This document shows positions 10,123 through 50,165 of a stretch of DNA of 64,000 nucleotides, one piece after another. The stretch's first letter is position 1. The number at the start of each line of letters is the position of its first letter. A program made the position numbers and the translations under genes. The stretch lies in the NCBI RefSeq assembly GCF_000385925.1, contig NC_021175.1, positions 317,501-381,500 of the forward strand, in the 5' to 3' direction. The notes below the pieces were generated by a model, which saw only the letters and a list, made by a program, of their open reading frames with translations, was not told the origin of the DNA and searched no databases. The DNA comes from Streptococcus cristatus AS 1.3089. GTDB taxonomy: Bacteria > Bacillota > Bacilli > Lactobacillales > Streptococcaceae.

Positions 10123-10757
10123 GAGTAAGAAATCGTAAGGGGGCGACTGAACTATTAGAAGCCAACCCCCACTATGTAATTCTAAATCCAGCTGATGCCA
10201 AGGGAAAGTGGCGGGAAATTTTTGGTAATGACCACCCTATCCACATTGAAGTCGGAAGTGGCAAGGGGGCCTTTATCACAGGAATGGCCAAGGCTAATCC
10301 AGATATCAACTATATCGGAATTGACATTCAGAAGTCTGTTCTCAGCTATGCTTTGGATAAGGTTTTGGTGGCTGATGTACCCAATATTAAGCTGCTCTGG
10401 GTGGATGGTTCAGATTTGACCAACTACTTTGCAGACGGAGAGATTGATCGGCTTTATTTGAATTTCTCTGATCCGTGGCCTAAGAAGCGGCATGAAAAAC
10501 GCCGGCTGACCTATAAGTCTTTCTTGGATACGTTTAAGCAGATTTTGCCAGAAAAAGGAGAAATCCACTTCAAGACGGATAATCGTGGCTTGTTTGAATA
10601 CAGTCTGGTCAGCTTTTCGCAGTATGGCATGGTTCTCAAAGGTGTTTGGCTGGATCTTCATGCCAGTGACTTTGAAGGCAATGTTCTAACCGAATATGAG
10701 CAAAAATTCTCTAGCAAGGGTCAGGTTATTTACCGAGTTGAAGCAGAGTTTCAATAA
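10119..10757 (+). CDS. trmB: tRNA (guanine-N7-)-methyltransferase TrmB
   Basis: This 212-residue SAM-dependent enzyme makes m7G46 in the tRNA variable loop. It shows the SAM-binding motif [11 protein letters not shown] near residue 45, and the TrmB signature [17 protein letters not shown] near residue 120. It is coupled to ccrZ by a 4-base overlap and followed by a strong terminator. In many streptococci rimP-nusA come next; here an adhesin gene follows instead. Confidence 0.95.
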
Positions 10758-10766
10758 AAATTGAGA

Positions 10767-10847
10767 GAGTCCTAAGCAGGGAATGTGTCTTAATTGTTAG
10801 ATTTTGAGTCTAATTTTTGGTACACATTCCTGTTAAGGATTCTTTTT
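10767..10847 (+). terminator. Long-stem terminator behind trmB
   Basis: The left arm at 10767-10788 (containing GGGAATGTGT) pairs with a right arm at 10822-10842 (ACACATTCC, then TGTTAAGGATTC) with small mismatches, and is followed by TTTTTG. Confidence 0.8.
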
Positions 10848-11146
10848 GTTTTGGCTTATTTTTAGTCTGGAAGGATGATTTTTCTTTAAGGGTAGCGTTT
10901 TCAAGATAACAAAGGCACAAGAACTCCTTGTTCCAATAATAATATATGTCACTTTTGTTACAGAAAAAATTAGATAGAAAAATCCTTGATATAATAGGAG
11001 AAAAACGGTATAATTATAGGTATGGTTTGATGTTCAAATTTTGGCATTATAACCACCAATCATATATTATAAAATACTTTGCTGCTCAGGCGTTAAGGTG
11101 TTGAGTAATAGGTGGTTGAACTATATTTTAAAAAGGAGAGATGTTC
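10848..11146 (+). promoter_or_regulatory. Upstream region and probable structured leader of the adhesin gene
   Basis: There is no gene here. TATAAT-like boxes occur at about 10987-11015 (GATATAATAG, GGTATAATTATAGG). Downstream, AACCACC at about 11050 is complementary to GGTGGTT at about 11111, which could close a long hairpin in the 5' untranslated region just before the SD AAAAAGGAGAG. The pairing suggests, but does not show, control of translation or mRNA stability. Confidence 0.45.
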
Positions 11147-14100
11147 ATGGATAAAAATGCGAGACGCAGATTAAACCGTGCGAGTGCTGAGAAACGACTT
11201 CGATACTCAGTTCGTAAGTTTAATGTGGGCGTGGCTTCTGTAGCAGTCGCAGCTTTCATGTTCTTTGGGGGGAATGTTGTCTCAGCCGATACGCTAGCTA
11301 AGACAGATTCTTCAACCACCTCTACGGAGAAAACGACCTCTGTGCCGGATTCAGGGAAAGATTCGGGAACGGATGACTCTGATTCTGAGTCGGCCATAGG
11401 TAAGGATTCAACCGTAGCAACTGTTGCTGAAAGCAATACAGTTTCAAGTGCTGTTTCTACAGCATCTTCTACCTCTGCTGAGGACTTGTCTAGCAAAGTA
11501 GAAGACAAGACTGTTAAATCAGAAGCTGCTTCAAAAAGTGAAGCAGTCTTGAAAGAAGCTACTTCACAAGCATCTAAAGCTTCAGTAGCGACTAGTCAAT
11601 CAGCTGCCCCTGCAGCTCAGTCTGAGGCTCCAGCAGCTTCACCAGCTTCTTCAGCTACTGCAGAGTCAACTGCGGTTTCATCTGAAGCTGCAGCAGAATC
11701 AACTGCTGCTGTGGAACCTAAAGTATCAGTTGAAAAAGCAGCTAGCCAAGCAGCTAGTTTGGCAACAGCTAGCAAAACACCAAATGCAGTAGCTAAGAGT
11801 GAGGCTAATTCCACATTAGCAGCAGCTCAAAACGAAGTAAATAAAGGTTACGCTGATTTCCGTAAATCAGGAGAAAGCGGCTTCCGTTCGTTTGACCCAC
11901 AAACAGGGAAAACAACTGTAACGAAAGAAAACTTCCTTGACTACTTCAGATTGAATGGTTCAGCTACCTATAATTCATACGATGGTATCGTAACCCTTAC
12001 TCCAGATGAAAACTCTAAGACAGGTAACTTCAGTCTGAAGAGTAAGATTAATATGAACCAAAGCTTCAAGCTGACTGGAGGAGTTAACCTTGGTAGCAAG
12101 ACTCAGGAACGTTATGGTGCCGATGGTATCGGTTTTGCCTTCCATACAGGGAACACAACAGACCTAGGTGCTGATGGTGGTAACCTTGGTATCGGTGGTT
12201 TGCGTAATGCGACTGGTTTCAAACTGGATACTTTCTGGAACGTCCACACCCCGCCAAAAGGAAATCGTTTTGACACTAGCAATACGGATTCCTTCCAATA
12301 CGGTTGGGCTGAAGACCCTCGTCTGGGACAGTTCGGTGCTTGGGTAAATACCACTCATAAACAAGTTCCTGGTGCTCGTGGTCTCTTCGGACCTAGTGGC
12401 ACATATGAGCGTTGGTGGGCTGAGACAGACGCTGGTAGTGCTCAGCGCCTGGACTCAAGTGACTTGGATGGTCGTTTCCACAGATTTGCTATCCAGTATG
12501 ACGGTGTAACCAAGGAATTAACTGTCTCTTACGAAAGTAATCTTGGTATCAAGCAATGGAAGAAGAAAGTTTCTACTCCAGAAGAACTGATGTCCATGGT
12601 GGTTACGGCGACGACGGGTAACTACAAGAACTTGCAACAGTTCCAAATCAAGCGTTTTGATTTCTATCAAAGTGCCTCTGTTGACGTACGTTATGAAGAT
12701 GAGCAAGGTCGAGAAATCGCTGAAGGCTCAGTAGCTTATCCACAAGGTGCCTTCAAAGGTAAACCTTATACCACTGAACAAAAAACAATCCCAGGCTATG
12801 GCTTTGTCCGGATGAAAAATGGTAGTTTGCCACCTTCAGGAACTCTGGCTGACTGGGGTACCAACGGTACAGTAACCTACGTTTACCGTAAAGGTGCAAC
12901 TGATACGAAGACAGAAAAGAAGACAGTCTCTCGTACTATTTATTATAAATATAAACCAGGTGTGACAGGACCGACACTTCCGCCAGCTTATACTCAAACA
13001 GCTGAGTTCACTCGGACTGTGACAGGTGGTCGACCAGGTCCATGGAGTCCTTCATCTAAGAATTTTGCGCCTGTAGATTCTCTAGATGTACCAGGATATA
13101 CACCAGATATAGCGACAGTTCCAGGGCTTACAGTAAATCCAGGTTCTACCCCAAGTGATGTAACAGTATACTACGACAAGATTGCGCCAAGAGTAACAAC
13201 TGAAACAAAAGACGTCACTCGTACAGTAGTTTACGAATACGAAGATGGTGTGACTAGAAATCGTCCAGCACTTCCACGTGAAGTACAACAAAATGTACAA
13301 TTTACTCGTCAAGTGTCAGAAGACCCAGCGACTGGTAGAAAGACATACGGCAATTGGACACCAAGTCGTCAAACTGTAGATGCGGTTGATACACCAGCGA
13401 TTAAAGGCTTTACACCAAATAAAACTCGTGTAAATTCAGCCTCTGTTTCACCAACAGACCCAAGCTGGCGTGAAATCGTTTCATACCGTAAGAATGATCC
13501 GAAAGTAACAACTGAAACTAAGGATGTTACTCGTACAGTCGCTTACGAATATGAAGACGGTGTGACTAGAAATCGTCCAGCACTTCCGCAACCGGTTGAG
13601 CAAACAGTTCAATTTACTCGCCAAGTGTCAGAAGATCCAGTAACTGGTCAGAAGACATACGGTAACTGGACACCTAGCCGTCAAAATGTAGCTGCTGTTG
13701 ATAGTCCAGAAGTAGCAGGCTTTACACCAAATAAACCACGTGTAAATTCAGCCTCTGTTGCTCCAACAGATCCAAGTTGGCGTGAAATTGTAAGCTATTC
13801 TGCTGCAACTCAAAAGGGAAGCATCGTTTACCGTACAGATGGTAAGAATGGTGTTGAAGCTAAGACTCTCCACACAGATAACGTAACAGGTAATTCAAAC
13901 ACTCCTGTCAACTACACAACAACTGCGAAAATCAATGAATTTAAACAGTTGGGTTATGATCTTGTTAGCGATGGCTTTACTAAAGCTGGCGGTCAAAAAT
14001 TTGACAGCAATAACAATGTAGATCAAACATGGGAAGTTGTTCTTACTCCACGTATTGAGACAAAACAAGAAACAAAAGATGTTACTCGTAACGTTCGTTA

Positions 14101-37669: not shown

Positions 37670-38017
37670 ATGAATCCATTAATTCAAAGCTTGACTGAAG
37701 GTCAACTTCGCTCAGATATCCCTGCATTCCGTCCTGGTGACACTGTCCGCGTTCACGCGAAAGTTGTCGAAGGAACTCGCGAACGTATCCAGATCTTTGA
37801 AGGTGTCGTTATCGCTCGCAAAGGTGCTGGAATCTCAGAAAACTACACAGTTCGTAAAATCTCTAACGGTGTAGGTGTTGAACGTACTTTCCCAATCCAC
37901 ACTCCACGTGTTGACAAGATTGAAGTCGTTCGTTACGGTAAAGTTCGTCGTGCTAAATTGTACTACCTTCGTGCATTGCAAGGTAAGGCAGCGCGTATCA
38001 AAGAAATCCGTCGCTAA
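37670..38017 (+). CDS. rplS: 50S ribosomal protein L19
   Basis: This 115-residue L19 has the conserved [33 protein letters not shown] start and [11 protein letters not shown] end. It binds 23S rRNA at the 30S-50S interface. SD AGGAGA lies at the right distance. A tRNA-Arg gene follows 40 bp later. Confidence 0.98.
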
Positions 38018-38057
38018 TATCAGAAATGACTCTGTCACTTGGCAGAGTTTTTCTCTA

Positions 38058-38129
38058 GTCCCCTTAGTTCAATGGATATAACAACTCCCTCCTAAGGAGT
38101 AGTTGCTGGTTCGATTCCGGCAGGGGACA
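38058..38129 (+). tRNA. tRNA-Arg, anticodon CCU
   Basis: A complete cloverleaf is visible: acceptor GTCCCCT/AGGGGAC with discriminator A, D-arm GTTC/TAAC-like, anticodon arm ACTCC-CTCCTAA-GGAGT giving anticodon CCT, and T-arm GCTGG-TTCGATT-CCGGC. CCA is not encoded. The island starts directly behind it. Confidence 0.95.
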
Positions 38130-38141
38130 TTGAATTATGCT

Positions 38142-38169
38142 TAAAACCCTTGTTTTACAAGGTTTTTTC
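38142..38169 (+). terminator. Terminator behind tRNA-Arg
   Basis: AAAACCCTTG-TTTTA-CAAGGTTTTTT: a short stem with a T6 tail. Confidence 0.75.
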
Positions 38170-38935
38170 TATATTTGCCCCAAATTCGCCCCAAAAGTTT
38201 CGAAAATCTTTCTTATTCGATTATGATTTTTTCTTTTTGTTACTCTAGTTAATGGGCATAGACTTCTGCATGCCCAAAATAGATTGCTCTATCGAAAGCT
38301 AGATGATGAAAGTAAGTTCTTTGCAGTGGGGAACATAAGCACTAGCGGTCACTTTTTTCTAAAAAAGTAAGAGGACTGTGGACAAAAGATTGTTCATAAA
38401 ATTATTCTAGAATAATTACAATAAAACTATTTTCTTCTAGGGTTAGTGGAAATCCTCAGATGGCTTGCCGTCATTACCGAATAACGAGAGTAATATCATT
38501 CTTTATAACTGCAGATATGGAGATATAGAAGAATGGAAAATGAGTGCTATAGCAAATGTTGCAGCGTTTTTTAATAGAAAGTAACAAAAATACTCATTAT
38601 CTATTGAAATTTTTAGTTTTTAAGTTTACAATGATATTAATATAGTGTTCTAAATATGTTCCTATGAAGATTATCAGTGGATTTTTATTAAAGCTAAAAA
38701 CTTATAGTATAGGTGATTAGTAATGTCTTTATCTATATGGTTACCTTGATAAAGAATTCGTTTTTTAGGACTAAGATATTATTCATTTAAATATTTTGTA
38801 GTCTGTCTATAATACTTCAGAAATTATTTTCTTTAAAAATGAAAGCGCTTTAATTTTTAGACGCTTTAATCTAAATTAGAGATTTAAGATTGGATTATTT
38901 TTCCAACATTTACACTAAATGAAATGAGGATAAAA
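38170..38935. other. AT-rich gap between tRNA-Arg and cas3
   Basis: About 760 bp contain no ORF that I can support. TTTGCCCCAAATTCGCCCCAAAAG near 38176-38197 is of the kind found at integrase-gene ends and attachment regions, which with the tRNA suggests an old integration scar. A cre-like box is at 38840-38853. The rest shows nothing beyond AT-rich sequence. Confidence 0.5.
38840..38853 (+). promoter_or_regulatory. Catabolite-responsive element (cre)-like site upstream of cas3
   Basis: TGAAAGCGCTTTAA matches the cre consensus TGWAARCGYTWNCW at 13 of 14 positions, about 85 bp before the cas3 start. CcpA binding at this spot is an inference. Confidence 0.45.
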
Positions 38936-41350
38936 ATGATAAAAGCTCATTATAATCGTGATACGAACGAAATGCAATCGCTAAAAATACATTTAACAAA
39001 TGTTGCTGAAAGTGGAAGAAAAGAAGCGGAATCTTTAGGACAAGGTGATGTGCTTTTTTTACTAGGCTTATATCATGACTTAGGCAAGGCAAATAAAGCT
39101 TTTCAAGATAAATTGGAAATGCATCCTAGCAAGCATGTTGATCATTCGTCTGCAGGAGCTAGATATCTCTTTCAGAATATACAAGCATGTTTAAAAAAAT
39201 CAAGCATTCCGTTGGCAGACAGGGTACTTTTTCAGGAGATCAGTGCCTATGTTATTTCAGCTCATCACGGTATGTATAACATTCCTCTGCAAGATGAAGA
39301 TGTTCAAGCAGAACAATTTGCATTTAACAAGTTGAGGCATCGAATTATAGAAGGTATAGCGAACGAGCCTTACCAAGAAGATATTCTACCTTTTGCTCAA
39401 GAATTAGAAGATGAATTAAGCATCTATGGTTACAGAGATTTAAACGATTTAATCGAAAAAGCATTTGCAAATTACCAGCAAGCTTGGTCTAAACTTAGTT
39501 GGTCTGATGAAAGTGAGAAAGAATATTATAGTGGTTGTTTTATTCGGATGTACTTATCCTTTTTGAAGAATGCAGATATATTAGATACTATCAATGCTTA
39601 TGGCTTACTCATTGAACCTTTAAAAGACGAAGAAAAACAAAAACTAAATGAGTCTTATCTTGAAGCTATTGAGCGAAAATATCGTAGCTTTAGTCATCCA
39701 ACTACAAGACTTAATGAGATTCGTTCACAAATTGGTGAACGAGTTAAGAGTAGGGGTGAAAAAGATTCAACGGGAATCTATCGTTTGGATCTGCCAACTG
39801 GCGCTGGAAAAACGAATCTTAGTATGAGATATGCCTTTCATCAGTTGGTTGATCAAAATAAATCAAGATTTTTCTATATTACCCCATTTTTATCTGTCCT
39901 GGAGCAAAATGCTTCTGAAATTAGAAAAGTAATTGGCGAGGTAGGTGTTCTAGAGCATCATTCAAATGTTATACAGAACAAACAAGAGAACGAGGATAAG
40001 GGAGACGAAAAAGAGAGCTTATTAGCAGAGTACCTGATAGAAAGTTGGGATAGTCCAGTCGTTTTGACATCAATGGTTCAATTTTTTCAAACTTTATTTA
40101 AAACTAAATCAGCAAATATCCGTCGTTTTTCCAGTTTAGCGAATAGTGTTTTGATTTTAGATGAAGTACAATCATTGCCTATTGAGGTGACAACTTTATT
40201 TAATTTAACCATGAATTTCTTAAATAAAGTTATGAATACGACTATCATCTTATGTACAGCTACACAGCCTGCTTATGATTCTACTGCAATTAATCATAAA
40301 CTTTCTTATGGTGGAAAAAATGGTGAGGCTACTGATATAGTCGAGTTAATTCATGACGAAAAAGAAGTCTTTTCAAGAACAGAACTTAGAAAATTTGATG
40401 AAAATAATCAACATTCGAACCTGTCAGATTTAGTAGATTTTGTACTGGAAAATGACGAGTCTATTCTTGCGATTTTTAACACCAAAAAGACAGTTGATAA
40501 ATTATATATGATGTTTGAAGGATTGACTGATAGACCTATTTATCAACTTTCGACTAATATGTGTGCTCAGCACAGATTAGACATTATATCGGAAATTAAA
40601 CAACATCTAAAAAAAGGAATACCTATTATTTGTATTAGTACGCAACTAATTGAAGCTGGAGTTGACATTGATTTTAATCGTGTCATCAGATCTTATGCAG
40701 GAGTTGATTCAATTGTGCAAGCTAGTGGACGATGTAATCGTGAAGGTAAACGTGATAAAGGTCAGGTTACCTTAGTCAATCTTACCGCTGAAGAGGAAAA
40801 TCTATCACGCTTGAAAGAAATAAAAGCTAAGAAAGACGCCACAGAGCATATTATCCATAAGATTTCATCGCCTATTGAAATGTCGCTTTTAAATCGGGAT
40901 TTTTTTGAATATTATTACGCTAATAATCAAGGTTCAATGGATTATCCTTTATCGCATGGTGAATCAGTTTACGATTATTTAAGCACAAATTCATATCAAG
41001 ACAGAAATAATTTTAAGGGAAAGTTAAAGCAAGCCTTTAAAACTGCTGGTTTGAAGATGAATTTAATAAACAATGACACAATAGGGGTGTTGGTTCCGTA
41101 TGGAGACGCTATTGATAAGTTGTTGTTTTTAGAAGAATTGTGTGAATATGATTACCCATCTGTTGAAGACTATCAAACGATAAAAGCTCTTTTAAAGGAA
41201 TTGCAGCCCTATACGGTAAACGTTCGTAAGCACGATCAAGTGCTTGAAGCGACAAAACCATATTTGAATGGGCAAATTCAGATATTGTCAGATGGTTATT
41301 ATGATGAGAAAAAGGGGATTACCCTAGATTCAGGAAGTTTCCTGATGTAA
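38936..41350 (+). CDS. cas3: CRISPR-associated helicase-nuclease Cas3 (type I-C)
   Basis: This 804-residue effector nuclease has an N-terminal HD domain (LGLYHDLGKANKAFQDKL near residue 45; VDHSSAGARY near 70; SAHHGMY near 100). An SF2 helicase follows, with Walker A LPTGAGKTN near residue 286, DEVQ box LILDEVQSLP near 407 and VQASGRCNREGKR near 600. Cas3 unwinds and degrades DNA after Cascade binding. ATG 38936 is chosen because GAGG lies 6 bases upstream. It is separated by 244 bp from cas5c, unlike the tightly packed rest, and that gap carries regulatory features. The frame is intact. Confidence 0.96.
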   Translation: MIKAHYNRDTNEMQSLKIHLTNVAESGRKEAESLGQGDVLFLLGLYHDLGKANKAFQDKLEMHPSKHVDHSSAGARYLFQNIQACLKKSSIPLADRVLFQEISAYVISAHHGMYNIPLQDEDVQAEQFAFNKLRHRIIEGIANEPYQEDILPFAQELEDELSIYGYRDLNDLIEKAFANYQQAWSKLSWSDESEKEYYSGCFIRMYLSFLKNADILDTINAYGLLIEPLKDEEKQKLNESYLEAIERKYRSFSHPTTRLNEIRSQIGERVKSRGEKDSTGIYRLDLPTGAGKTNLSMRYAFHQLVDQNKSRFFYITPFLSVLEQNASEIRKVIGEVGVLEHHSNVIQNKQENEDKGDEKESLLAEYLIESWDSPVVLTSMVQFFQTLFKTKSANIRRFSSLANSVLILDEVQSLPIEVTTLFNLTMNFLNKVMNTTIILCTATQPAYDSTAINHKLSYGGKNGEATDIVELIHDEKEVFSRTELRKFDENNQHSNLSDLVDFVLENDESILAIFNTKKTVDKLYMMFEGLTDRPIYQLSTNMCAQHRLDIISEIKQHLKKGIPIICISTQLIEAGVDIDFNRVIRSYAGVDSIVQASGRCNREGKRDKGQVTLVNLTAEEENLSRLKEIKAKKDATEHIIHKISSPIEMSLLNRDFFEYYYANNQGSMDYPLSHGESVYDYLSTNSYQDRNNFKGKLKQAFKTAGLKMNLINNDTIGVLVPYGDAIDKLLFLEELCEYDYPSVEDYQTIKALLKELQPYTVNVRKHDQVLEATKPYLNGQIQILSDGYYDEKKGITLDSGSFLM

Positions 41351-41360
41351 AAGTTAAATG

Positions 41361-41460
41361 AAAATAGGCCAACGAGAGTCAGTAGAGGACTTTGTTGACC
41401 TGTAATTCAGTATAAATAAGCACTAAATATAATTTCAATCCACATAGATAGCACTATGAT
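41361..41460 (-). ncRNA. Candidate Cas-regulating RNA (CreR/CreA-like, degenerate single repeat plus pseudo-spacer)
   Basis: A minus-strand transcript is predicted from about 41460 to about 41361. It contains a 5-bp hairpin, CATAG-TGCTAT-CTATG (41458-41443), followed by TGGATTGAAAT (41442-41432). With the preceding G this equals the last 12 nt of the array repeat, i.e. the complete 5' handle that Cas5c leaves on type I-C crRNAs. A 31-nt pseudo-spacer (41431-41401) follows, then a terminator hairpin (41400-41368) with a TTTT tail. The pseudo-spacer matches a site beside the cas5c promoter. No ORF fits. It is absent from the array itself and lies inside the cas operon. Known CreR/CreA RNAs have this layout; the function here is inferred. 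Confidence 0.75.
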
Positions 41461-41466
41461 GGCTAG

Positions 41467-41495
41467 ATTATATCAAAATTGATTCATATAATCAA
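41467..41495 (-). promoter_or_regulatory. Promoter of the candidate Cas-regulating RNA
   Basis: On the minus strand TTGATT (41495-41490) and TATAAT (41472-41467) are exactly 17 bp apart, with an extended -10 TG (TGATATAAT). The start point would fall 7-8 bases later, just before the pseudo-repeat hairpin. Confidence 0.75.
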
Positions 41496-41524
41496 CAGCC
41501 ATTTTATAATCACTATATATAGAA
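41491..41524 (-). promoter_or_regulatory. Predicted partial-match Cascade target (operator) between divergent promoters
   Basis: On the minus strand a TTC PAM (41524-41522) is followed by TATATATAGTGATTAT. Against the pseudo-spacer TATATTTAGTGCTTAT, 14 of 16 bases agree and the mismatches are at positions 6 and 12. Pairing fades after position 16, which should allow binding but not Cas3 cleavage. The site covers a plus-strand TATAAT (41505-41510) and most of the -35 box of the RNA's own promoter. Confidence 0.7.
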
Positions 41525-41532
41525 ACAAAAAA

Positions 41533-41561
41533 TTGACTTTTGAAGTTTCAAGTGCTAAGAT
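41533..41561 (+). promoter_or_regulatory. Putative promoter of the cas5c-8c-7c-4-1-2 operon
   Basis: TTGACT (41533-41538) and TAAGAT (41556-41561) have 17-bp spacing, 9 bp beyond the PAM of the predicted target. An alternative is TTCATA (41483-41488) with TATAAT (41505-41510), 16-bp spacing, which lies inside the target. Either supports separate transcription of the operon from cas3. Confidence 0.55.
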
Positions 41562-41594
41562 AGGTCTATAGAATCACAGAAGGAGGTTTTAACC

Positions 41595-42323
41595 TTGTAC
41601 AGATCAAGAAATTTCTATGCGAAAATACGTAGTGAACAGGCTCTATTTACAAATCCTGCAACTAAAGGTGGTGGAGAGAGATCATCATATCCTGTTCCTA
41701 CTCGGCAAGCTCTCCAAGGCATAATTGATGCTGTGTACTACAAGCCGACTTTCACAAATGTTGTTACTGAAGTTAAGGTCATGAATCAAATTCAGACAGA
41801 GCTACATGGTGTTCGTGCTTTGTTACATGATTACAGTGCGGATTTGAGTTATGTTTCATACTTGAGTGATGTGGAATATCTAGTGAAATTCCATTTCATT
41901 TGGAATGAAAATCGTGAAGATTTGATGCAAGATAGGTTACCTAACAAGCATGAGGCTATTATGGAACGTTCTATTCGAAAGGGTGGACGACGAACTATTT
42001 TTTTAGGGACCAGCGAATGCTTTGGCTTAGTCGATGAAATTAGTCAGGAAGAGTATGAAAACACCCCTTCTTACTACGATGGTGTTACTATTGATTTAGG
42101 TATCATGTTCCATTCTTTTGCTTATCCCAAAGACGAAACGACACCATTAAAATCTTATTTTACAAAAACAGTGATGGAGAATGGGTTGATTAAGTTTAAG
42201 TCTCAGTCTGATTGTGAAATTGTAAATACTTTGTCTAGTTATACTTTCAAGACACCTGGCCAGATTAAGTCCGTTGATGATGAACTTAAGGAATACGAAA
42301 CCATGGAGAAAGGAGAAGGATAA
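41595..42323 (+). CDS. cas5c: Cas5c (type I-C crRNA endonuclease and Cascade subunit)
   Basis: This 242-residue protein replaces Cas6 in type I-C by cutting the repeat at the base of its stem and holding the 11-nt 5' handle. It shows the Cas5 N-terminal RAMP core (MYRSRNFYAKIRSEQALFTNPATKGGGERSSYPVPTRQA) and the glycine-rich region near residues 130-140 (RKGGRRTIFLGTSEC). It begins at TTG 41595, 8 bases behind the strong SD AGGAGG; no in-frame ATG lies upstream. The stop overlaps the cas8c start as TAATG. Frame intact. Confidence 0.95.
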   Translation: MYRSRNFYAKIRSEQALFTNPATKGGGERSSYPVPTRQALQGIIDAVYYKPTFTNVVTEVKVMNQIQTELHGVRALLHDYSADLSYVSYLSDVEYLVKFHFIWNENREDLMQDRLPNKHEAIMERSIRKGGRRTIFLGTSECFGLVDEISQEEYENTPSYYDGVTIDLGIMFHSFAYPKDETTPLKSYFTKTVMENGLIKFKSQSDCEIVNTLSSYTFKTPGQIKSVDDELKEYETMEKGEG

Positions 42324-44252
42324 TGGATTTTTTTACTTCTCTACTTAAAAACTTATGAAAAAGCAGAAGAAATTGGCTTAGTTGACCAACAAAAAGGAGA
42401 CAATCCTGTTTTGCTACCGATTTACCATGATAATAAGGTAATAAAAAATAATGATATCTATATCGAAATATTATTAGATAATGAAGGTGCTTTTTTTAAG
42501 GCAAGGAAGTTTGAAATTGGTGAAAATGTGATTTTCCTGTAACCTATGAATCTAGTAATAGAACGAGCACTAAGATAGCACCACATCCAATCGTAGATAG
42601 TTGGTACTATGTCATGTATTCGGAATTAAGAAAAGAGAAGCATCAAAGGTATCTACAAAATTTAGATAACTGGATGATCCAAACTGAAAATAATAAAGTA
42701 GAAATTTTTTTAAAAATAATTAAAAAATTTGTTGAGAATCCAGAATCAGTTGAATTAGTTTTAAATAGTGCATTTGGTTCAGATTGCCAAATACAAGAAG
42801 AGTTTGTTGATAATAACGGAAAAATTCAAGAAGGTTCACTTATTTTTGGAGAAAAAAACAAAAAATAGCTTTAAAAGATATTAAATTATCATTTAAAATT
42901 TTAGAGTTTGATGGTTTGAGAGACGTTTCAGTTTCAAATTTTAATGAAATGCATCATGATTTTATTAACTATATTAATAATAATTCAACTGAAATTGGCA
43001 TTGGAATATGTAATATTAGCGGAAAAGAAGACAGGATCATTAAAAATCATCGTAAACCGAAAGGTGTATTTTCAAATGGAAAACTGATTTCCCAAAATAA
43101 TAAAATAGCATACCTTGGTGATAGATTTCCAAATGAAAATGCTTCATCAGACATAATTAAAATTGGCTATGAAACCTCAGAAAAAATACATTTGATGATT
43201 AAGTATCTGTTGGAGAACAATAATAGTCATACTTGGTTAGGTACCTCTCAATATTTGATCAATTGGTTTAGTGATGATTTGTCAAATGATAGTCAGTTAG
43301 ATATTGTCAAACCAGAGTTTGATGATTTATTTGAAGATGATGAAGAAGAAAAACAAGTTTTTATTAAACCGAATGAAGAGAATAAAAAATTGGTTCATCT
43401 TTTGTTAGAGGTCAGAAATTATTCAGCAATAATGCTACTTATAATATTGCTATCCTGAATGAAAATAAAGGTCGTATTGCTTTAAAATATTTCCGCCAGC
43501 TTCAAGTTTCACAGCTGCTGAAAAATCTGGAAACTTGGCAGGAAAACTATTCTTGGAAGGCAAAAACTAAATCTGGAAATTATAAATTAAGAACACCTAC
43601 TTTTAATGACATAATCAACGCTGCCTACGGTATTGACAGAGAACGTTATTTGGAATTGGACAATGACAGTTTTAAGAGTGATCAATATCAGCAATTAGTA
43701 ACAGCTTTGATTGATGGGAATCCAATACCTAGTACTATCGTTAAGAAGTTAGAAAAGAATATTAAACAGCGACAAAAGTACCCTAATCACTGGTCTCAGG
43801 TGCAGCAAATAAGTTTAGCGATTTTACACAAACAATATGGAAGGGAGTTTAAACCAATGTTAGATCATGAAAATACTAATCGTTCCTATCTCTTCGGAAG
43901 ATTATTAGCTATTTTTGAGCTAATTGAAACTCAGCGATATCGAATAGATGGTAATAATCAGGAAAGAATTACAAATGCCGAGAGGTACTGGAACGCCTAT
44001 ACCAGCCAGCCAGCCAAGTTAATGATGAATTTGACAAATAAAATTAAACCTTATGAAGAAACTGTAAAGTTAAATGCTCATGGAATTTTTAATAAATTGG
44101 ACAAAGAGCGAGCAGAAATTGTCCAATTACTCAGCCCCCTAATGGCAAAGAAGGATATCAATGATCCCTTGGATTATCAATTTATTTTTGGTTACTATGC
44201 TGAAAAGCAGTTCTTTTATACAAAACAAGAAAAAAATGAAAGTGAGGAATAG
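42323..44252 (+). pseudogene. cas8c: Cas8c (Csd1, type I-C large subunit), four frame breaks
   Basis: Joining five frames gives a normal Cas8c of about 643 residues, the subunit that reads the PAM and opens DNA. The breaks are: an extra A in the A run near 42350 (MDFFTSLLK then TYEKAEEIGL); a missing T near 42533 (VIFL then PVTYESSN); a missing A near 42865 (EKNK then IALKDIKL); and a missing G in GAGGTCAG near 43410 (LLLE then GQKLFSNNATYN). The longest intact part is the C terminus from 43650. All breaks are single bases in short homopolymers. Flanking cas genes are intact. Confidence 0.88.
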
Positions 44253-44255
44253 CAG

Positions 44256-45107
44256 ATGTTGGAACACAAGATTGATTTTATGGTAACGGTTGAAGTGAGG
44301 GAAGCTAATGCAAATGGTGATCCTTTGTCAGGAAATATGCCAAGAACAAATGCAGCCAATCAAGGCTTAATCAGCGATGTAGCCATCAAGCGCAAAATCC
44401 GCAATCGGATACAGGATTTTGGCCACACCATCTTTGTACAAGCAAATGATCGCATTGAGGATGGGCTTAATTCACTTGAGAAACGGTTTAAGACTCAATT
44501 TACAGGAAAAGAATCAGATGAAGAAATTAATGAAAAAGCCAATCAATTATGGATGGATGTCCGTTCGTTTGGTCAAGTGTTCACTTATCTAAAAGATCGC
44601 TCGTTTGCTATTCGTGGACCGGTTTCTGTTAGCATGGCTAAATCTTTGGATCCAATCATCATCTCTAGTTTACAGATTACTAGAAGTACAAATGGTGTCG
44701 AACCTAAAAAAGCAGGTGGACGTTCATCTGATACGATGGGGACTAAGCATTTTGTGGACTATGGCGTCTATGTCATCAAAGGTTCGATTAATCCAAATTT
44801 TGCTGAAAAAACAGGATTCTCTAACGAAGATGCTGAAGTTATAAAGGAAGTTCTCGTTAGTCTTTTTGAAAACGATGCGTCATCCGCTCGTCCTGAAGGT
44901 TCTATGCGAGTAAGGGAAGTCTTCTGGTTTACACATTCTAATAAGTTAGGAAATGTTTCCAGTGCTCGTGTTTTTGATTTGTTTGAATTTGACAAAGAAA
45001 AACAGGATAAGGATAGTTATGAAGACTATGCTATCCATCTTAATCAAGAGAAATTGGCAGAATATGAGGCTAAAGGATTGACAGTTGATATCTTAGAAGG
45101 ACTGTAA
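44256..45107 (+). CDS. cas7c: Cas7c (Csd2, type I-C backbone subunit)
   Basis: This 283-residue RAMP protein polymerises along the spacer to form the Cascade backbone. The family N terminus is clear: DFMVTVEVREANANGDPLSGNMPRTN, with DVAIKRKIRNR, and later the RSFGQVFTYL and TRSTNGVEPKKAGGRSSDTMGTKHFVDYG block containing the thumb loop. It lies 3 bases behind cas8c. Frame intact and length normal. Confidence 0.96.
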   Translation: MLEHKIDFMVTVEVREANANGDPLSGNMPRTNAANQGLISDVAIKRKIRNRIQDFGHTIFVQANDRIEDGLNSLEKRFKTQFTGKESDEEINEKANQLWMDVRSFGQVFTYLKDRSFAIRGPVSVSMAKSLDPIIISSLQITRSTNGVEPKKAGGRSSDTMGTKHFVDYGVYVIKGSINPNFAEKTGFSNEDAEVIKEVLVSLFENDASSARPEGSMRVREVFWFTHSNKLGNVSSARVFDLFEFDKEKQDKDSYEDYAIHLNQEKLAEYEAKGLTVDILEGL

Positions 45108-45108
45108 T

Positions 45109-45780
45109 ATGGTTTATGCTGAAAGTGACTATTTGATGTTGTCTGGAATTCAGCATTTCCAATTCTGCAAGCGCCAATGGAGTTTGATTCATATTGAGCA
45201 GCAGTGGGTTGAAAACGAAGCGACAGCTCATGGGCAGATTTTACATCAAAAAGCAGACAATCCATATATCAAGGAAAAACGAAAGGATGTTATTAGCTCG
45301 CGAGCTATGCATGTCTCGTCAAGAGAGCTTGGTCTCTATGGAATATTGGATGTGGTTGAATTTCATAAGGATGAAAAAGGAGTTTCGTTAAAAGGGAAAC
45401 ATGGCAAATGGCTCCCTGTTATTATTGAATATAAGCGTGGAAAACCAAAAAAGGATACTCGTGATATTGTTCAGTTGGTTGCTCAAACGATTTGTCTTGA
45501 AGAAACTCTTGGATGCGAAATCGAGTATGGTTATCTTTACTATCATAGTGTAAATCAAAAGAAGCGAATAGAAATCACTTCTGATTTACGAAAAGAAGTA
45601 GCTGAGCTGGCTTGCCAAATGCATCAATATTATGATAAAAAGCTTATTCCGAAAGCTGAATATTTTAAAAACTGTCAGTTATGCTCCTTAGTTGATATTT
45701 GCATGCCGCGTCTGAGCAAGAAGTCACGCAATGTTGACAATTATATTTTCCAAGCACTAAAAAGTGAGGATAGCTTATGA
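45109..45780 (+). CDS. cas4: Cas4 (spacer-processing nuclease)
   Basis: This 223-residue RecB-like iron-sulfur nuclease trims prespacers and enforces the PAM during adaptation. The nuclease core (LGLYGILDVVEFH with the catalytic Asp, then VIIEYKRGKPKK with Glu/Lys) and the cysteines of the cluster (FQFCKRQW at the N terminus; CQLCSLVDICMP at the C terminus) are all present. It overlaps cas1 as ATGA. Confidence 0.95.
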   Translation: MVYAESDYLMLSGIQHFQFCKRQWSLIHIEQQWVENEATAHGQILHQKADNPYIKEKRKDVISSRAMHVSSRELGLYGILDVVEFHKDEKGVSLKGKHGKWLPVIIEYKRGKPKKDTRDIVQLVAQTICLEETLGCEIEYGYLYYHSVNQKKRIEITSDLRKEVAELACQMHQYYDKKLIPKAEYFKNCQLCSLVDICMPRLSKKSRNVDNYIFQALKSEDSL

Positions 45781-46802
45781 AAAAGCTACTTAATACTCTA
45801 TATTTGACTCAAGATAATTTTTATTTAACGCGTGAAAGAGATAATATCGTTATCAAGCAAGAAGGTAAGGTTGTCAGTCGTTTTCCATATCGGATACTTG
45901 ATGGCATTGTTTGTTTTTCTTATTTGGGAGCGTCTCCTTCTTTGATTGAACTATGTGCCAAAAATCAGATAAATTTGTCCTTCCATACACCACAAGGGCG
46001 CTTTTGCGGTCGATTTGTTGGGCAAACAAATGGGAATGTTTTGCTAAGGAGACAGCATTATCGTTTGGCGGATGAAGAAAAATCTCTAGAATATGCAAAA
46101 CACTTTATTCTTGCTAAGATTTCAAATTCTAGAAAATATTTATTACGTTTCAAGCGTGACCATCGCGATCGAATCGATAGCCATCTCTTTGAAGAGGTGA
46201 ATACGGAATTAACTTGGGCCTTGGAACAGGTTCAAGCAGCTGAAGACAAGGATTCTCTATTAGGAATTGAAGGTCAGGCAGCAAATCAATATTTTCGTAT
46301 TTTTAATGATTTAGTATTAACTGATAAGGAGACTTTCCAGTTTAATGGGCGAACCAGACGACCTCCCTTAGATTGTGTCAATGCTTTATTATCATTTGGC
46401 TACAGTTTGTTAACATATGAATGCCAATCTGCTTTGGAAGCAGTGGGACTGGATAGTTATGTTGGCTTCTTCCATACGGATAGACCAGGTCGTGCTAGTT
46501 TGGCATTGGATTTAGTCGAAGAATTTCGTGCTTATATAGTTGATAGATTTGTATTTTCTTTGATAAATAAAGGTCAGCTGACAAAAAAACATTTTGAATA
46601 TAAGGAAAACGGCAGTGTCATATTAACAGAAAAAGGTCGTGCGACCTTTATTGAAGCATGGCAAAAGCGGAAACATCAGGAAGTAGAACATCCTTTTACT
46701 AAAGAAAAGGTGAAATTGATGTTACTGCCCTATGTCCAAGCACAGTTATTGGCTAAGACAATCCGTGGGGAATTGGAATCCTATCCACCGTTTTTAATAT
46801 AG
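45777..46802 (+). CDS. cas1: Cas1 (CRISPR integrase)
   Basis: This 341-residue metal-dependent integrase shows the three active-site parts: Glu in LLGIEGQAANQYF near residue 163, His in VGFFHTDRPGRASLALDL near 230 and Asp/Glu in LVEEFRAYIVDRF near 245. With Cas2 it inserts new spacers at the leader end. Overlaps cas4; frame intact. Confidence 0.97.
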   Translation: MKKLLNTLYLTQDNFYLTRERDNIVIKQEGKVVSRFPYRILDGIVCFSYLGASPSLIELCAKNQINLSFHTPQGRFCGRFVGQTNGNVLLRRQHYRLADEEKSLEYAKHFILAKISNSRKYLLRFKRDHRDRIDSHLFEEVNTELTWALEQVQAAEDKDSLLGIEGQAANQYFRIFNDLVLTDKETFQFNGRTRRPPLDCVNALLSFGYSLLTYECQSALEAVGLDSYVGFFHTDRPGRASLALDLVEEFRAYIVDRFVFSLINKGQLTKKHFEYKENGSVILTEKGRATFIEAWQKRKHQEVEHPFTKEKVKLMLLPYVQAQLLAKTIRGELESYPPFLI

Positions 46803-46812
46803 GAGCCGGTTT

Positions 46813-47106
46813 ATGATGGTATTAGTAACATATGATGTGAATACTGAAACTGCGCAAGGCAGGAAAAGATTACGTCATGTGGCAAAATTATGCGTTGATT
46901 ATGGGCAACGCGTTCAGAATTCAGTTTTTGAATGCTCAGTAACTCCTGCAGAATTTGTAGAAATAAAGGCTAAGCTTTTGAGTATTATTGACACTGAGTC
47001 TGACAGTATTCGTTTTTATTTGCTAGGAAAAAACTGGCAAAATCGTCTAGAAACGATTGGACGTAATACAAGTTATGATCCTGATATAGGGGTATTACTC
47101 CTTTAA
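46813..47106 (+). CDS. cas2: Cas2
   Basis: This 97-residue ferredoxin-fold protein forms the centre of the Cas1-Cas2 integration complex. The LVTYDVNTET start holds the conserved Asp, and the QNSVFECSVTPAEF strand and SIRFYLLG are typical of the I-C family. The SD AGGAG lies before ATG 46813. It is the last gene of the operon; the array leader follows directly. Confidence 0.96.
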   Translation: MMVLVTYDVNTETAQGRKRLRHVAKLCVDYGQRVQNSVFECSVTPAEFVEIKAKLLSIIDTESDSIRFYLLGKNWQNRLETIGRNTSYDPDIGVLLL

Positions 47107-47252
47107 ATAGTCTAGTGCGAATAGGTGTTGCTCATAAAAAAGAAGGACTTTCGCGCAAAAAATAAACAAAAACAAGGCAAAAATTCGAAATTTTAGAAGA
47201 ATTTTCTTCTCTCGAAAGATAATGTTTGCTTAAAACAGTGCAACTACGCGCT
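47107..47252 (+). promoter_or_regulatory. CRISPR leader
   Basis: This 146-bp AT-rich, non-coding stretch lies between cas2 and the first repeat. It contains a palindromic AGAAGAATTTTCTTCT core near 47196-47211. As in other I-C loci this is where transcription of the array starts and new spacers enter. Confidence 0.8.
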
Positions 47253-50165
47253 GTCGCTCCCTTCACGGGAGCGTGGATTGAAATTATACGTGTGTTTGAT
47301 AATAGCTGTCTCAGGGACGTCGCTCCCTTCACGGGAGCGTGGATTGAAATCCCAAACCCATAAATGAGTTACAGCATGGCGAAGTCGCTCCCTTCACGGG
47401 AGCGTGGATTGAAATGGAAGTTACTGGTGAAAATTATTATATGTGAGCAAGTCGCTCCCTTCACGGGAGCGTGGATTGAAATATTTTAGGGTGGAAGGTC
47501 TTCCAACGTTCAGCCATGTCGCTCCCTTCACGGGAGCGTGGATTGAAATAAACCAAGTTATCACCGTGACAAGAATGTATGAGTCGCTCCCTTCACGGGA
47601 GCGTGGATTGAAATGTTCCAATGTCACTTGATGTTACTTTCCACTTGGTCGCTCCCTTCACGGGAGCGTGGATTGAAATTGATATAAGCTGATAGGGAGA
47701 AAAATTGAACTGACGTCGCTCCCTTCACGGGAGCGTGGATTGAAATCAGATAATTTTGAAAAACCCTTTATCTATTAAGGGTCGCTCCCTTCACGGGAGC
47801 GTGGATTGAAATAACAAATTTAGTGCCATCTGGCAGACCAGCTAATGTCGCTCCCTTCACGGGAGCGTGGATTGAAATAACGTTATGGTGATTTGGTTTA
47901 TTCTAAGACTAAGTCGCTCCCTTCACGGGAGCGTGGATTGAAATATCCTATCCTTATGTGATGTATGGTCACAAAATGTCGCTCCCTTCACGGGAGCGTG
48001 GATTGAAATATCAGGGATGAACTTTTTAGGAATGATAATGCACGTCGCTCCCTTCACGGGAGCGTGGATTGAAATGAAATCAATATAATTTCCTTTATAA
48101 TACGCTACAGTCGCTCCCTTCACGGGAGCGTGGATTGAAATCTGTTGTTTCGGACACATTCTCACCGCTTGAATGTCGCTCCCTTCACGGGAGCGTGGAT
48201 TGAAATTATGCTAGGTTTGAACTCATTAGGTGTTGATAAGTCGCTCCCTTCACGGGAGCGTGGATTGAAATACCATCCGCTACGAAGACCTGAACAAGCT
48301 AATAGGTCGCTCCCTTCACGGGAGCGTGGATTGAAATCTCAACAACTACCATTTTTATACGATTGATAACTGTCGCTCCCTTCACGGGAGCGTGGATTGA
48401 AATTGAGAACCTTTTTGAAAGGGTCAGCGCCAGAATGTCGCTCCCTTCACGGGAGCGTGGATTGAAATGGAAAAGCCTGGTTATTGAAAATATTTAGTTT
48501 GTCGCTCCCTTCACGGGAGCGTGGATTGAAATCAGATGAATTGAAAAAGTATGCTCTTGATCCAACGTCGCTCCCTTCACGGGAGCGTGGATTGAAATTT
48601 TGGTTGAAGCAGATAGGCTAGATTGACCGTCGTCGCTCCCTTCACGGGAGCGTGGATTGAAATCACTGGTCTAGGGTGTCTAATAGACGACTGCGAGTCG
48701 CTCCCTTCACGGGAGCGTGGATTGAAATCTAGCAGAAGAAAGCCTTATGCTTAACATCATCTTGTCGCTCCCTTCACGGGAGCGTGGATTGAAATTTATG
48801 TTGACATAAAATCTCTTGTAAACGGTAAGGTCGCTCCCTTCACGGGAGCGTGGATTGAAATAACGATGGATGTAGTGTATGTGAGCATGACTAAGGTCGC
48901 TCCCTTCACGGGAGCGTGGATTGAAATGAGTTACTGGCGAAAAAACAATTTATGCAGTAAAGTCGCTCCCTTCACGGGAGCGTGGATTGAAATATAAAAC
49001 ATAGCATATATACCACGTGAAAGAATAGGTCGCTCCCTTCACGGGGGCGTGGATTGAAATTCAATCATCTTCCAAGCAAGAAAGTTCCTTATCTTGTCGC
49101 TCCCTTCACGGGGGCGTGGATTGAAATAGAAAGCTGCATCAAGCTTATTTGATACTTTTACGTCGCTCCCTTCACGGGGGCGTGGATTGAAATTAGTTGG
49201 TGCAAAAGAAAGCCAGATGTAAAAATCGTCGCTCCCTTCACGGGGGCGTGGATTGAAATCAGTGTTTATCATAGTAGGAAGCTCATCGAACTGTCGCTCC
49301 CTTCACGGGGGCGTGGATTGAAATGTTTCAAAGAAACAACAATCACAAAACAAAATCCGTCGCTCCCTTCACGGGGGCGTGGATTGAAATACATAAACTA
49401 TTGACATTATTTTCATTTATATTGTCGCTCCCTTCACGGGGGCGTGGATTGAAATTTAAAAAGCTCTAAATCAAAATTAGTTAGATAAAGTCGCTCCCTT
49501 CACGGGGGCGTGGATTGAAATACTCCACCCTTTAAGAGCGTCATAACCAATGGTTGTCGCTCCCTTCACGGGGGCGTGGATTGAAATGAAGGAATGTTAC
49601 ACATCCAAGTGCGATTAAACCAGTCGCTCCCTTCACGGGGGCGTGGATTGAAATTCCTCAACTATACCTAAAGGCTTAATAAGTTCATGTCGCTCCCTTC
49701 ACGGGGGGCGTGGATTGAAATGTAACTTGAGAAGACTGCTCCTGCTGTTGGGGTTGTCGCTCCCCTTCACGGGGGGCGTGGATTGAAATACTGATGGTTT
49801 ATAATGAATAATAAGTAATATAGAGTCGCTCCCTTCACGGGGGCGTGGATTGAAATATTGTTTAGGTAGTTCAATGACTTCGAGATAAAAGTCGCTCCCT
49901 TCACGGGGGCGTGGATTGAAATATACATTGCCCGTTTAGCTTCATCTAAATAATACTGTCGCTCCCTTCACGGGGGCGTGGATTGAAATTGGTTGTTGAT
50001 GAAATTAAGTCCACCCAAATAGTCGCTCCCTTCACGGGGGCGTGGATTGAAATATGACCTGCATTACGGCCTTAATGATGCCTAATACGTCGCTCCCTTC
50101 ACGGGGGCGTGGATTGAAATAACACCCTCACGCTTGATAACCTCAAAATAACCAGTCGCTCCCTC
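47253..50165 (+). CRISPR. Type I-C CRISPR array, 44 full repeats plus a terminal partial
   Basis: The repeat is 32 bp: GTCGCTCCC, TTCA, CGGGAGCG as a 7-bp hairpin, then TGGATTGAAAT as the crRNA handle. Spacers are mostly 33-36 nt. I count 44 full repeats (first 47253-47284, last 50089-50120) and a decayed last one at 50155 with only GTCGCTCCCT left. Repeats 1-27 carry CGGGAGCG; repeats 28-44 (from 49029) carry CGGGGGCG. Repeats 38 (49689) and 39 (49756) have one or two extra bases in the G/C runs. The leader and cas2 are on the left, so the youngest spacers are at the left end. Confidence 0.98.

Follow-up and report, generated by a model that had tools for sequence, protein, structure and literature searches.

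Genomic context of the cas3-cas5c gap

The type I-C CRISPR-Cas subtype lacks Cas6. A locus of this subtype lies in the window, by which we mean the whole 64-kb stretch of DNA analysed, and the gap between its cas3 and cas5c genes holds a crRNA-like RNA gene hidden on the minus strand (Table 1). Among the genes of the cas operon, cas8c alone is broken, reflecting either decay or a sequencing or assembly error, and the others are open; in all 12 named relatives examined (of 13 loci), cas8c is uninterrupted, measuring 627-658 codons from stop to stop in a single frame. In the S. henryi locus (L008), cas8c is open and cas1 looks split, as two frames (196 and 156) stand at about 10199-11168 where the other named loci have a cas1-sized frame of 342-356 codons. 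Within the array of the window, the listed repeat copies change from GGGAGCG to GGGGGCG from 49029 on, forming a sharp variant boundary.

Table 1. Features of the type I-C locus and of the RNA gene in its cas3-cas5c gap (window coordinates)
Feature	Coordinates	Strand	Remarks
cas3	38924..41350	+	TIGR01587, TIGR01596; convergent with the RNA gene
cas3-cas5c gap, type I-C locus	41351-41594		holds the RNA gene on the minus strand
crRNA-like RNA gene	41495-41361	-	promoter, degenerate repeat, pseudo-spacer, terminator hairpin
RNA-gene promoter	41467..41495	-	TTGATT 41495-41490, 17-nt spacer, TG-extended TATAAT 41472-41467
Degenerate repeat hairpin CATAG/CTATG	41443..41458	-	predicted Cas5c substrate
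Repeat 3′ end GTGGATTGAAAT	41432..41443	-	exact match to the final 12 nt of the array repeat
Pseudo-spacer, 31 nt	41401..41431	-	guide: positions 1-16
Terminator hairpin (41400-41367) and T tail	41360..41400	-	faces the cas3 3′ end
Guide target	41506..41524	-	PAM TTC 41524-41522; protospacer positions 1-16 at 41521-41506
cas5c promoter	41533..41561	+	TTGACT, 17 nt, TG-extended TAAGAT; begins 8 bp past the target PAM
cas5c	41595..42323	+	TIGR01876, 299.7 bits; head of the presumably repressed operon and presumed processing enzyme
cas8c	42323..44252	+	four frame changes; last fragment matches TIGR01863 below cut-off
cas7, cas4, cas1, cas2	44256..47106	+	NCBIfam
CRISPR array	47253..49922 (at least to 49922)	+	repeat GTCGCTCCCTTCACGGGAGCGTGGATTGAAAT supplies the handle sequence

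Architecture of the RNA gene

The sequence-only reading had proposed a promoter with 17-bp spacing and an extended -10, a CATAG/CTATG hairpin, the exact last 12 bases of the array repeat, and a pseudo-spacer of 31 nt followed by a terminator hairpin with T4. All of these lie where it had placed them, and the 12-base identity was confirmed against the array repeat. The promoter carries 10 of the 12 consensus bases, but by itself it says little, since in 900 bp, where 3.7 promoter-like sites would be expected, the same consensus scan returned six. With the consensus threshold set loosely, a corresponding promoter is present in 18 of the 19 handle-bearing Streptococcus loci described below, with none in L038.

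The 5′ hairpin stops directly 5′ of UGGAUUGAAAU, as does the stem of the array repeat when both are folded. Folded on its own, it is no more stable than shuffled sequences (-3.5 kcal/mol, z -0.2), and its support therefore comes from the comparison of species: among the 24 loci compared, the two arms covary (CATAG/CTATG, CATAAC/GTTATG, CATGG/CCATG and CTCTTCAT/ATGAAGAG), with 3-4 pairs only in L036, L056 and L058. The predicted crRNA 5′ handle of the RNA is presumably 11 nt long (41442-41432), the length known from type I-C work. The terminator hairpin, at -13.1 kcal/mol, has a z of -3.6 against shuffles and is followed by TATTTTC; a consensus terminator scan flagged nothing at this hairpin, and the T tract is short. 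An Rfam search of positions 38000-48000 returned no family at the RNA gene. Allowing up to two mismatches, the 12-nt repeat end occurs in a single copy upstream of cas5c in the window, and a second loose match is found there in L027 and L038.

A guide target beside the cas5c promoter

The sequence-only reading did not contain a further element of the gap, namely a TTC-flanked target for the RNA's own guide (41524-41506). Pseudo-spacer positions 1-16 agree with this site everywhere but at 6 and 12. The complete site occurs once in the strain's own genome, at 41521-41506, and none of the other TTC sites in the 64-kb window exceeds 10 of 14 matches. Near-matches in the genome number 14, the guide itself being one, against 25 for a reversed control pattern, which gives no ground for claiming a second regulon. 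Near the cas3 start, a TTC site noticed by eye does not line up in register with the guide and was set aside.

A 34-nt protospacer starting from the target would extend to 41488 and cover the -35 of the RNA gene itself. This -35 falls within the 34-nt footprint in seven of the eight loci of the window's type, being just outside it in L027, and the cas5c -35 starts 8-9 bp past the PAM in all eight. Cascade bound at the target would sit between two divergent promoters, that of the RNA gene and that of cas5c. Across the 19 streptococcal loci, where promoters were taken as consensus matches only, the spacing to the downstream promoter is 7-9 bp in L029, L033 and L036, whereas the footprint overlaps the downstream -35 in L034, L035 and L037-L040 and touches it in L031 and L032 (offsets -11 to 1). 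As the cas5c -35 of the window lies downstream of the target without overlap, a block of this promoter is a reading of the geometry.

Pairing rule and co-variation

Pairing was analysed in 24 distinct guide/target pairs from 25 loci, including six non-Streptococcus loci picked for a score of at least 12. Matches fill 13 of 48 cells (27%) at positions 6 and 12 and 318 of 336 at the remaining 14 positions of the first 16 (p about 1e-25, Fisher), with the qualification that the cells are not independent and that the targets were chosen by a 14-position score, so that the latter value is partly due to selection, for which shuffles and swapped pairs serve as controls, while the figure at positions 6 and 12 is unselected. 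With one pair per distinct seed, the corresponding values are 9/34 and 222/238 (p about 2e-17). Beyond position 16, each position matches in 4-9 of 23-24 pairs.

Over 17 distinct guide seeds, own pairs match at 12-14 of 14 positions, whereas swapped pairs average 5.3 of 14 (38%) and reach 12 in 8 of 272 combinations. Positions 6, 12 and those past 16 match no better than in swapped pairs, indicating that they are free, and guides and targets of different species are generally unmatched, indicating that both sides have changed together. For haloarchaeal CreA, a rule established by mutation and covering positions 1-12 has been reported, in which the PAM is TTC, positions 1-5 and 7-11 pair and positions 6 and 12 are free (PMC8501985). 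The free positions 6 and 12 may be regarded as an evolutionary footprint of Cascade reading the site.

Distribution across genomes

A Cas5c scan of the genome collection yielded 13 named loci. Among 284 Streptococcus genomes, each representing a different species, 26 proved to contain cas5c. In 19 of the 26, the minus strand ahead of cas5c contains the handle G[TC]GGATTGAAAT (GTGG in 15 loci, GCGG in four), and all 19 also have the guide/target pair, which is therefore found in 19 of the 26 genomes with type I-C cas5c. Targets were evaluated in 20 handle loci, the 19 of Streptococcus and one of Enterococcus columbae. In every Streptococcus handle locus, 12-14 of the 14 positions 1-5, 7-11 and 13-16 agree between the guide and the best TTC site in the vicinity of cas5c; the L020 contig stops 17 nt into the pseudo-spacer, which is sufficient for the match count. 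With 15 positions scored, shuffled guides did equally well in 0 of 1000 trials in 18 loci and in 8 of 1000 in L031. The sequence-only reading had named a lack of conservation of handle and pseudo-spacer in related I-C loci as refuting the idea; the idea withstood this test, and the comparison across loci supports its assignment of the gene to the CreR/CreA kind of solitary RNA in a streptococcal type I-C system.

The E. columbae locus has a clear handle and hairpin upstream of cas5c and no convincing TTC target nearby: the best local site reaches 6/15 (L014), equalled by 956 of 1000 shuffles, and a longer stretch of the same locus (L041) gives 10/14 at best. Its PAM or target site may be different. 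A de novo scan of other Lactobacillales recovered the pair at 12/14 or better in five of 28 loci (L042, L048, L056, L058 and L068), with 1 of 560 shuffles passing under a looser rule; L059, which reached 12 under that looser rule only, was left out of the count. A phylum-level scan recovered it in two of 29 loci, one from the same genome as L048 (shuffles 0/580). These scans did not detect the arrangement in 23 of the 28 and 27 of the 29 loci; they accepted only handles with TTGAAA or ATTGAAA at the end, and other repeat types could therefore escape detection.

Guide-less loci and a peptide-bearing sister clade

Seven of the 26 Streptococcus loci (L022-L026, L028 and L030) lack the handle, their sole matches within two mismatches lying 511 bp upstream, inside cas3, in L028 and L030 (a single match per locus). 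None of the seven has a target at the 12/14 level, the best sites reaching 8-11 of 14 over all guides. By eye, L023, L025, L026, L028 and L030 retain scars of the pseudo-spacer tail or terminator, with the hairpin and target gone; L025 also retains the last 8 nt of the handle, and L023 may have a remnant resembling the cas5c promoter. The distance between cas3 and cas5c is 46-132 bp in the seven guide-less loci, compared with 244 bp in the window.

In ten other Streptococcus loci (L029, L031-L035 and L037-L040), the target lies 253-1310 bp from cas5c, and between them stands an open frame that is small and hydrophobic, has an LPAIL-like motif and is of type FLETIIIQLPAILIALASLITVISEKK or LIDKLLERLPAILTAVAYLVFACRSGNKDK; it lies within about 300 bp upstream of cas5c and usually has a basic end. 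A strong ribosome-binding site precedes the frame in nine of the ten loci (by eye), and some frames are without a common start codon. Pfam returned no family for the seven small peptides of this clade that were tried. As far as can be judged from such features, these peptides are candidate CRISPR-repressed peptide toxins and thus a possible CreTA. Besides the LPAIL-like frame, L031 and L032 have another small hydrophobic one 350-580 bp upstream of cas5c; in that region L031 also has frames that by eye resemble transposases. In L038 (the L009 locus, S. pseudoporcinus), about 350-480 bp upstream of cas5c, the unit ends a mini-CRISPR (by eye), in which near-intact repeats and two spacer-like stretches precede the pseudo-spacer, as if spacers had been acquired.

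In the Cas5c tree, the ten peptide loci group with L036, which has no such frame, with moderate support (89/89), and the window's type and all seven guide-less loci fall outside this group. The guide has been lost in 7 of 15 loci of the peptide-free group versus 0 of 11 in the other, a pattern suggestive of addiction but no proof of it, as the losses are not independent (three of the seven are close sisters). We give about equal weight for and against the view that one ancient streptococcal type I-C guide-RNA gene has two outputs, serving as a throttle of the Cascade operon (CreR) in the window's clade and, in the other clade, keeping in check a hydrophobic peptide (about 30-50 aa) whose effect would be poisonous if Cascade fails (a peptide-based CreTA). 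Such a peptide would make the guide undeletable, which would explain why losses are confined to the peptide-free clade.

Proposed mechanism and alternatives

Judged on what sequence can test, the conserved crRNA-like regulatory gene is real and is CreR-like in every such feature, and it very probably encodes a CreR-type autorepressor that would act via type I-C Cascade at the cas5c promoter. The gene parts, the guide/target match, its conservation, the co-variation and the joint loss, all seen in the sequences themselves, are the basis on which transcription, processing, binding, lack of cleavage, repression and a sensing role are proposed as follows. The gene's own promoter would yield an RNA of about 100 nt, which Cas5c would cut after the degenerate hairpin, leaving a normal crRNA handle, and the processed RNA would be loaded into type I-C Cascade in the manner of a crRNA. 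Through positions 1-16 of the pseudo-spacer, Cascade would then be led to the TTC-flanked site between the divergent promoters, and since the match ends at 16 nt, binding would presumably occur without Cas3 cleavage. Bound Cascade would block RNA polymerase at cas5c, and hence the expression of the genes for Cascade and adaptation. A block at the RNA gene is probable too, and the outcome would be negative feedback on the level of Cascade. Repression could be lifted by array crRNAs competing for Cascade or by a Cascade-inhibiting anti-CRISPR.

Repression of a promoter by a type I-C Cascade with a TTC PAM has been described for a full-length engineered spacer placed over the -10 (PMC10865793). 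A 2019 review cites work on Cas5c processing and states in its adaptation section that no experimental data are known for the S. pyogenes I-C system (PMC6546361). In the type I-C system of S. mutans, CcpA and CodY sites reported upstream of the first cas gene represent another layer of control (PMC10434267). The cas8c product reads the PAM and stabilises the R-loop, as the same 2019 review describes (PMC6546361). With cas8c broken, the loop may be idle in this strain and, if the gene has truly decayed, cannot work there; guide and target are still matched in the strain despite the broken cas8c.

Three other explanations were weighed. A CreA-type antitoxin, in which the RNA and Cascade repress a toxin gene in the gap and thereby make Cascade addictive, would agree with the hydrophobic frame between target and cas5c in 10 of the 19 handle-bearing Streptococcus loci, nine of the ten with a ribosome-binding site by eye. 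It is improbable for the window, because there and in seven relatives (L016-L021 and L027) the target lies only 73-74 bp from cas5c, a space taken up by the cas5c promoter and leader. The one listed plus-strand frame of at least 22 aa in the window encodes 30 aa, starts 116 bp upstream of cas5c and before the target, and spans target and promoter without a ribosome-binding site; moreover, cas8c is broken in the window, and 7 of the 15 loci of the peptide-free clade have lost the guide. In the window, CreR is favoured over CreA because the site adjoins the cas5c promoter and the stretch from the site to cas5c shows no separate gene preceded by a ribosome-binding site.

Guiding of Cascade to the site could instead activate or insulate the cas5c promoter, or limit only the synthesis of the RNA itself, and the footprint does end 8-9 bp upstream of the cas5c -35 while covering the RNA gene's -35 in seven of eight window-type loci. 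We consider this similarly unlikely, as the known CreA and CreR systems, so far as the sources describe them, repress, and the footprint overlaps the downstream -35 in six of the 19 streptococcal loci and touches it in two more. Least credible of all is a functionless, neutral remnant of an old CRISPR array, which the degenerate repeat and the near-intact repeats and spacer-like stretches still standing before the same kind of pseudo-spacer in L038 (by eye) might suggest, since seed and target have been retained together over 17 distinct seeds, the hairpin arms covary, and the mismatches cluster at positions 6 and 12 and past 16.

Relation to known systems

In Streptococcus pyogenes, the guide RNA tracr-L of Cas9 uses a short match to repress its own cas promoter, but it involves type II Cas9 and a tracrRNA, in contrast to the Cascade expected here. 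CreR has been named for types I-B, I-E and V-A, with autorepression mediated by Cascade, in the accessible text of a 2026 review (PMC13131331). As described there, CreR shares with the window a solitary crRNA-like gene in the cas locus, a PAM with a limited seed match at a cas promoter, and no toxin. Correspondingly, the window has a crRNA-like gene with a degenerate repeat inside the cas locus, a PAM-flanked limited seed match at the cas5c promoter region (the promoter being a consensus match) and, as far as can be seen, no toxin gene under the guide, with only promoter and leader before cas5c. The window differs from CreR in its subtype (I-C), in the expected processing by Cas5c, not Cas6, in having one repeat followed by a terminator, and in a single site common to two divergent promoters.

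CreTA is documented for haloarchaeal type I-B (PMC8501985) and Acinetobacter type I-F (PMC10097628), and the haloarchaeal rule, as far as the source sets it out, has in common with the window the TTC PAM, the paired positions 1-5 and 7-11 and the free positions 6 and 12. Unlike CreTA, pairing in the window extends to positions 13-16, and no toxin gene with the guide target in its promoter is seen there, although the sister clade possibly has one. Most, not all, creA genes have two flanking degenerate repeats according to the haloarchaeal study (PMC8501985), whereas a terminator hairpin occupies the 3′ place in the window. In CrePA, as reviewed, a crRNA-like RNA and a CRISPR effector likewise repress an adjacent promoter, but CreP is a KilA-N type protein, and nothing of such size lies in the gap (PMC12737573). 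The Racr phage RNA anti-CRISPRs, as reported, are also solitary repeat mimics, but they are virus-encoded (PMC10651486), whereas the RNA described here lies inside the cas locus and its exact 22-nt core was found in no viral contig.

Implications

A review describes type I-C as the most commonly occurring CRISPR subtype (PMC6546361). Among the best-ranked matches in the literature searched, which is mostly open-access, no type I-C CreR, CreTA or RNA-guided self-regulation was found, making this the first type I-C case met in that literature; as CreR is called widely distributed in type I by a review (PMC12737573), I-C cases may already be listed, and absence is no proof. The accessible text of a survey of structured RNAs in CRISPR operons reports a palindromic type I-C candidate upstream of cas3, with none between cas3 and cas5c in that text (PMC9067536).

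Collectively, guide, target, PAM and two promoters form a conserved circuit placed to the base, through which feedback control of streptococcal Cascade becomes directly testable. The sister clade provides a natural comparison between a regulator and an addiction module. Most probably, the RNA would serve as the thermostat of the CRISPR system.
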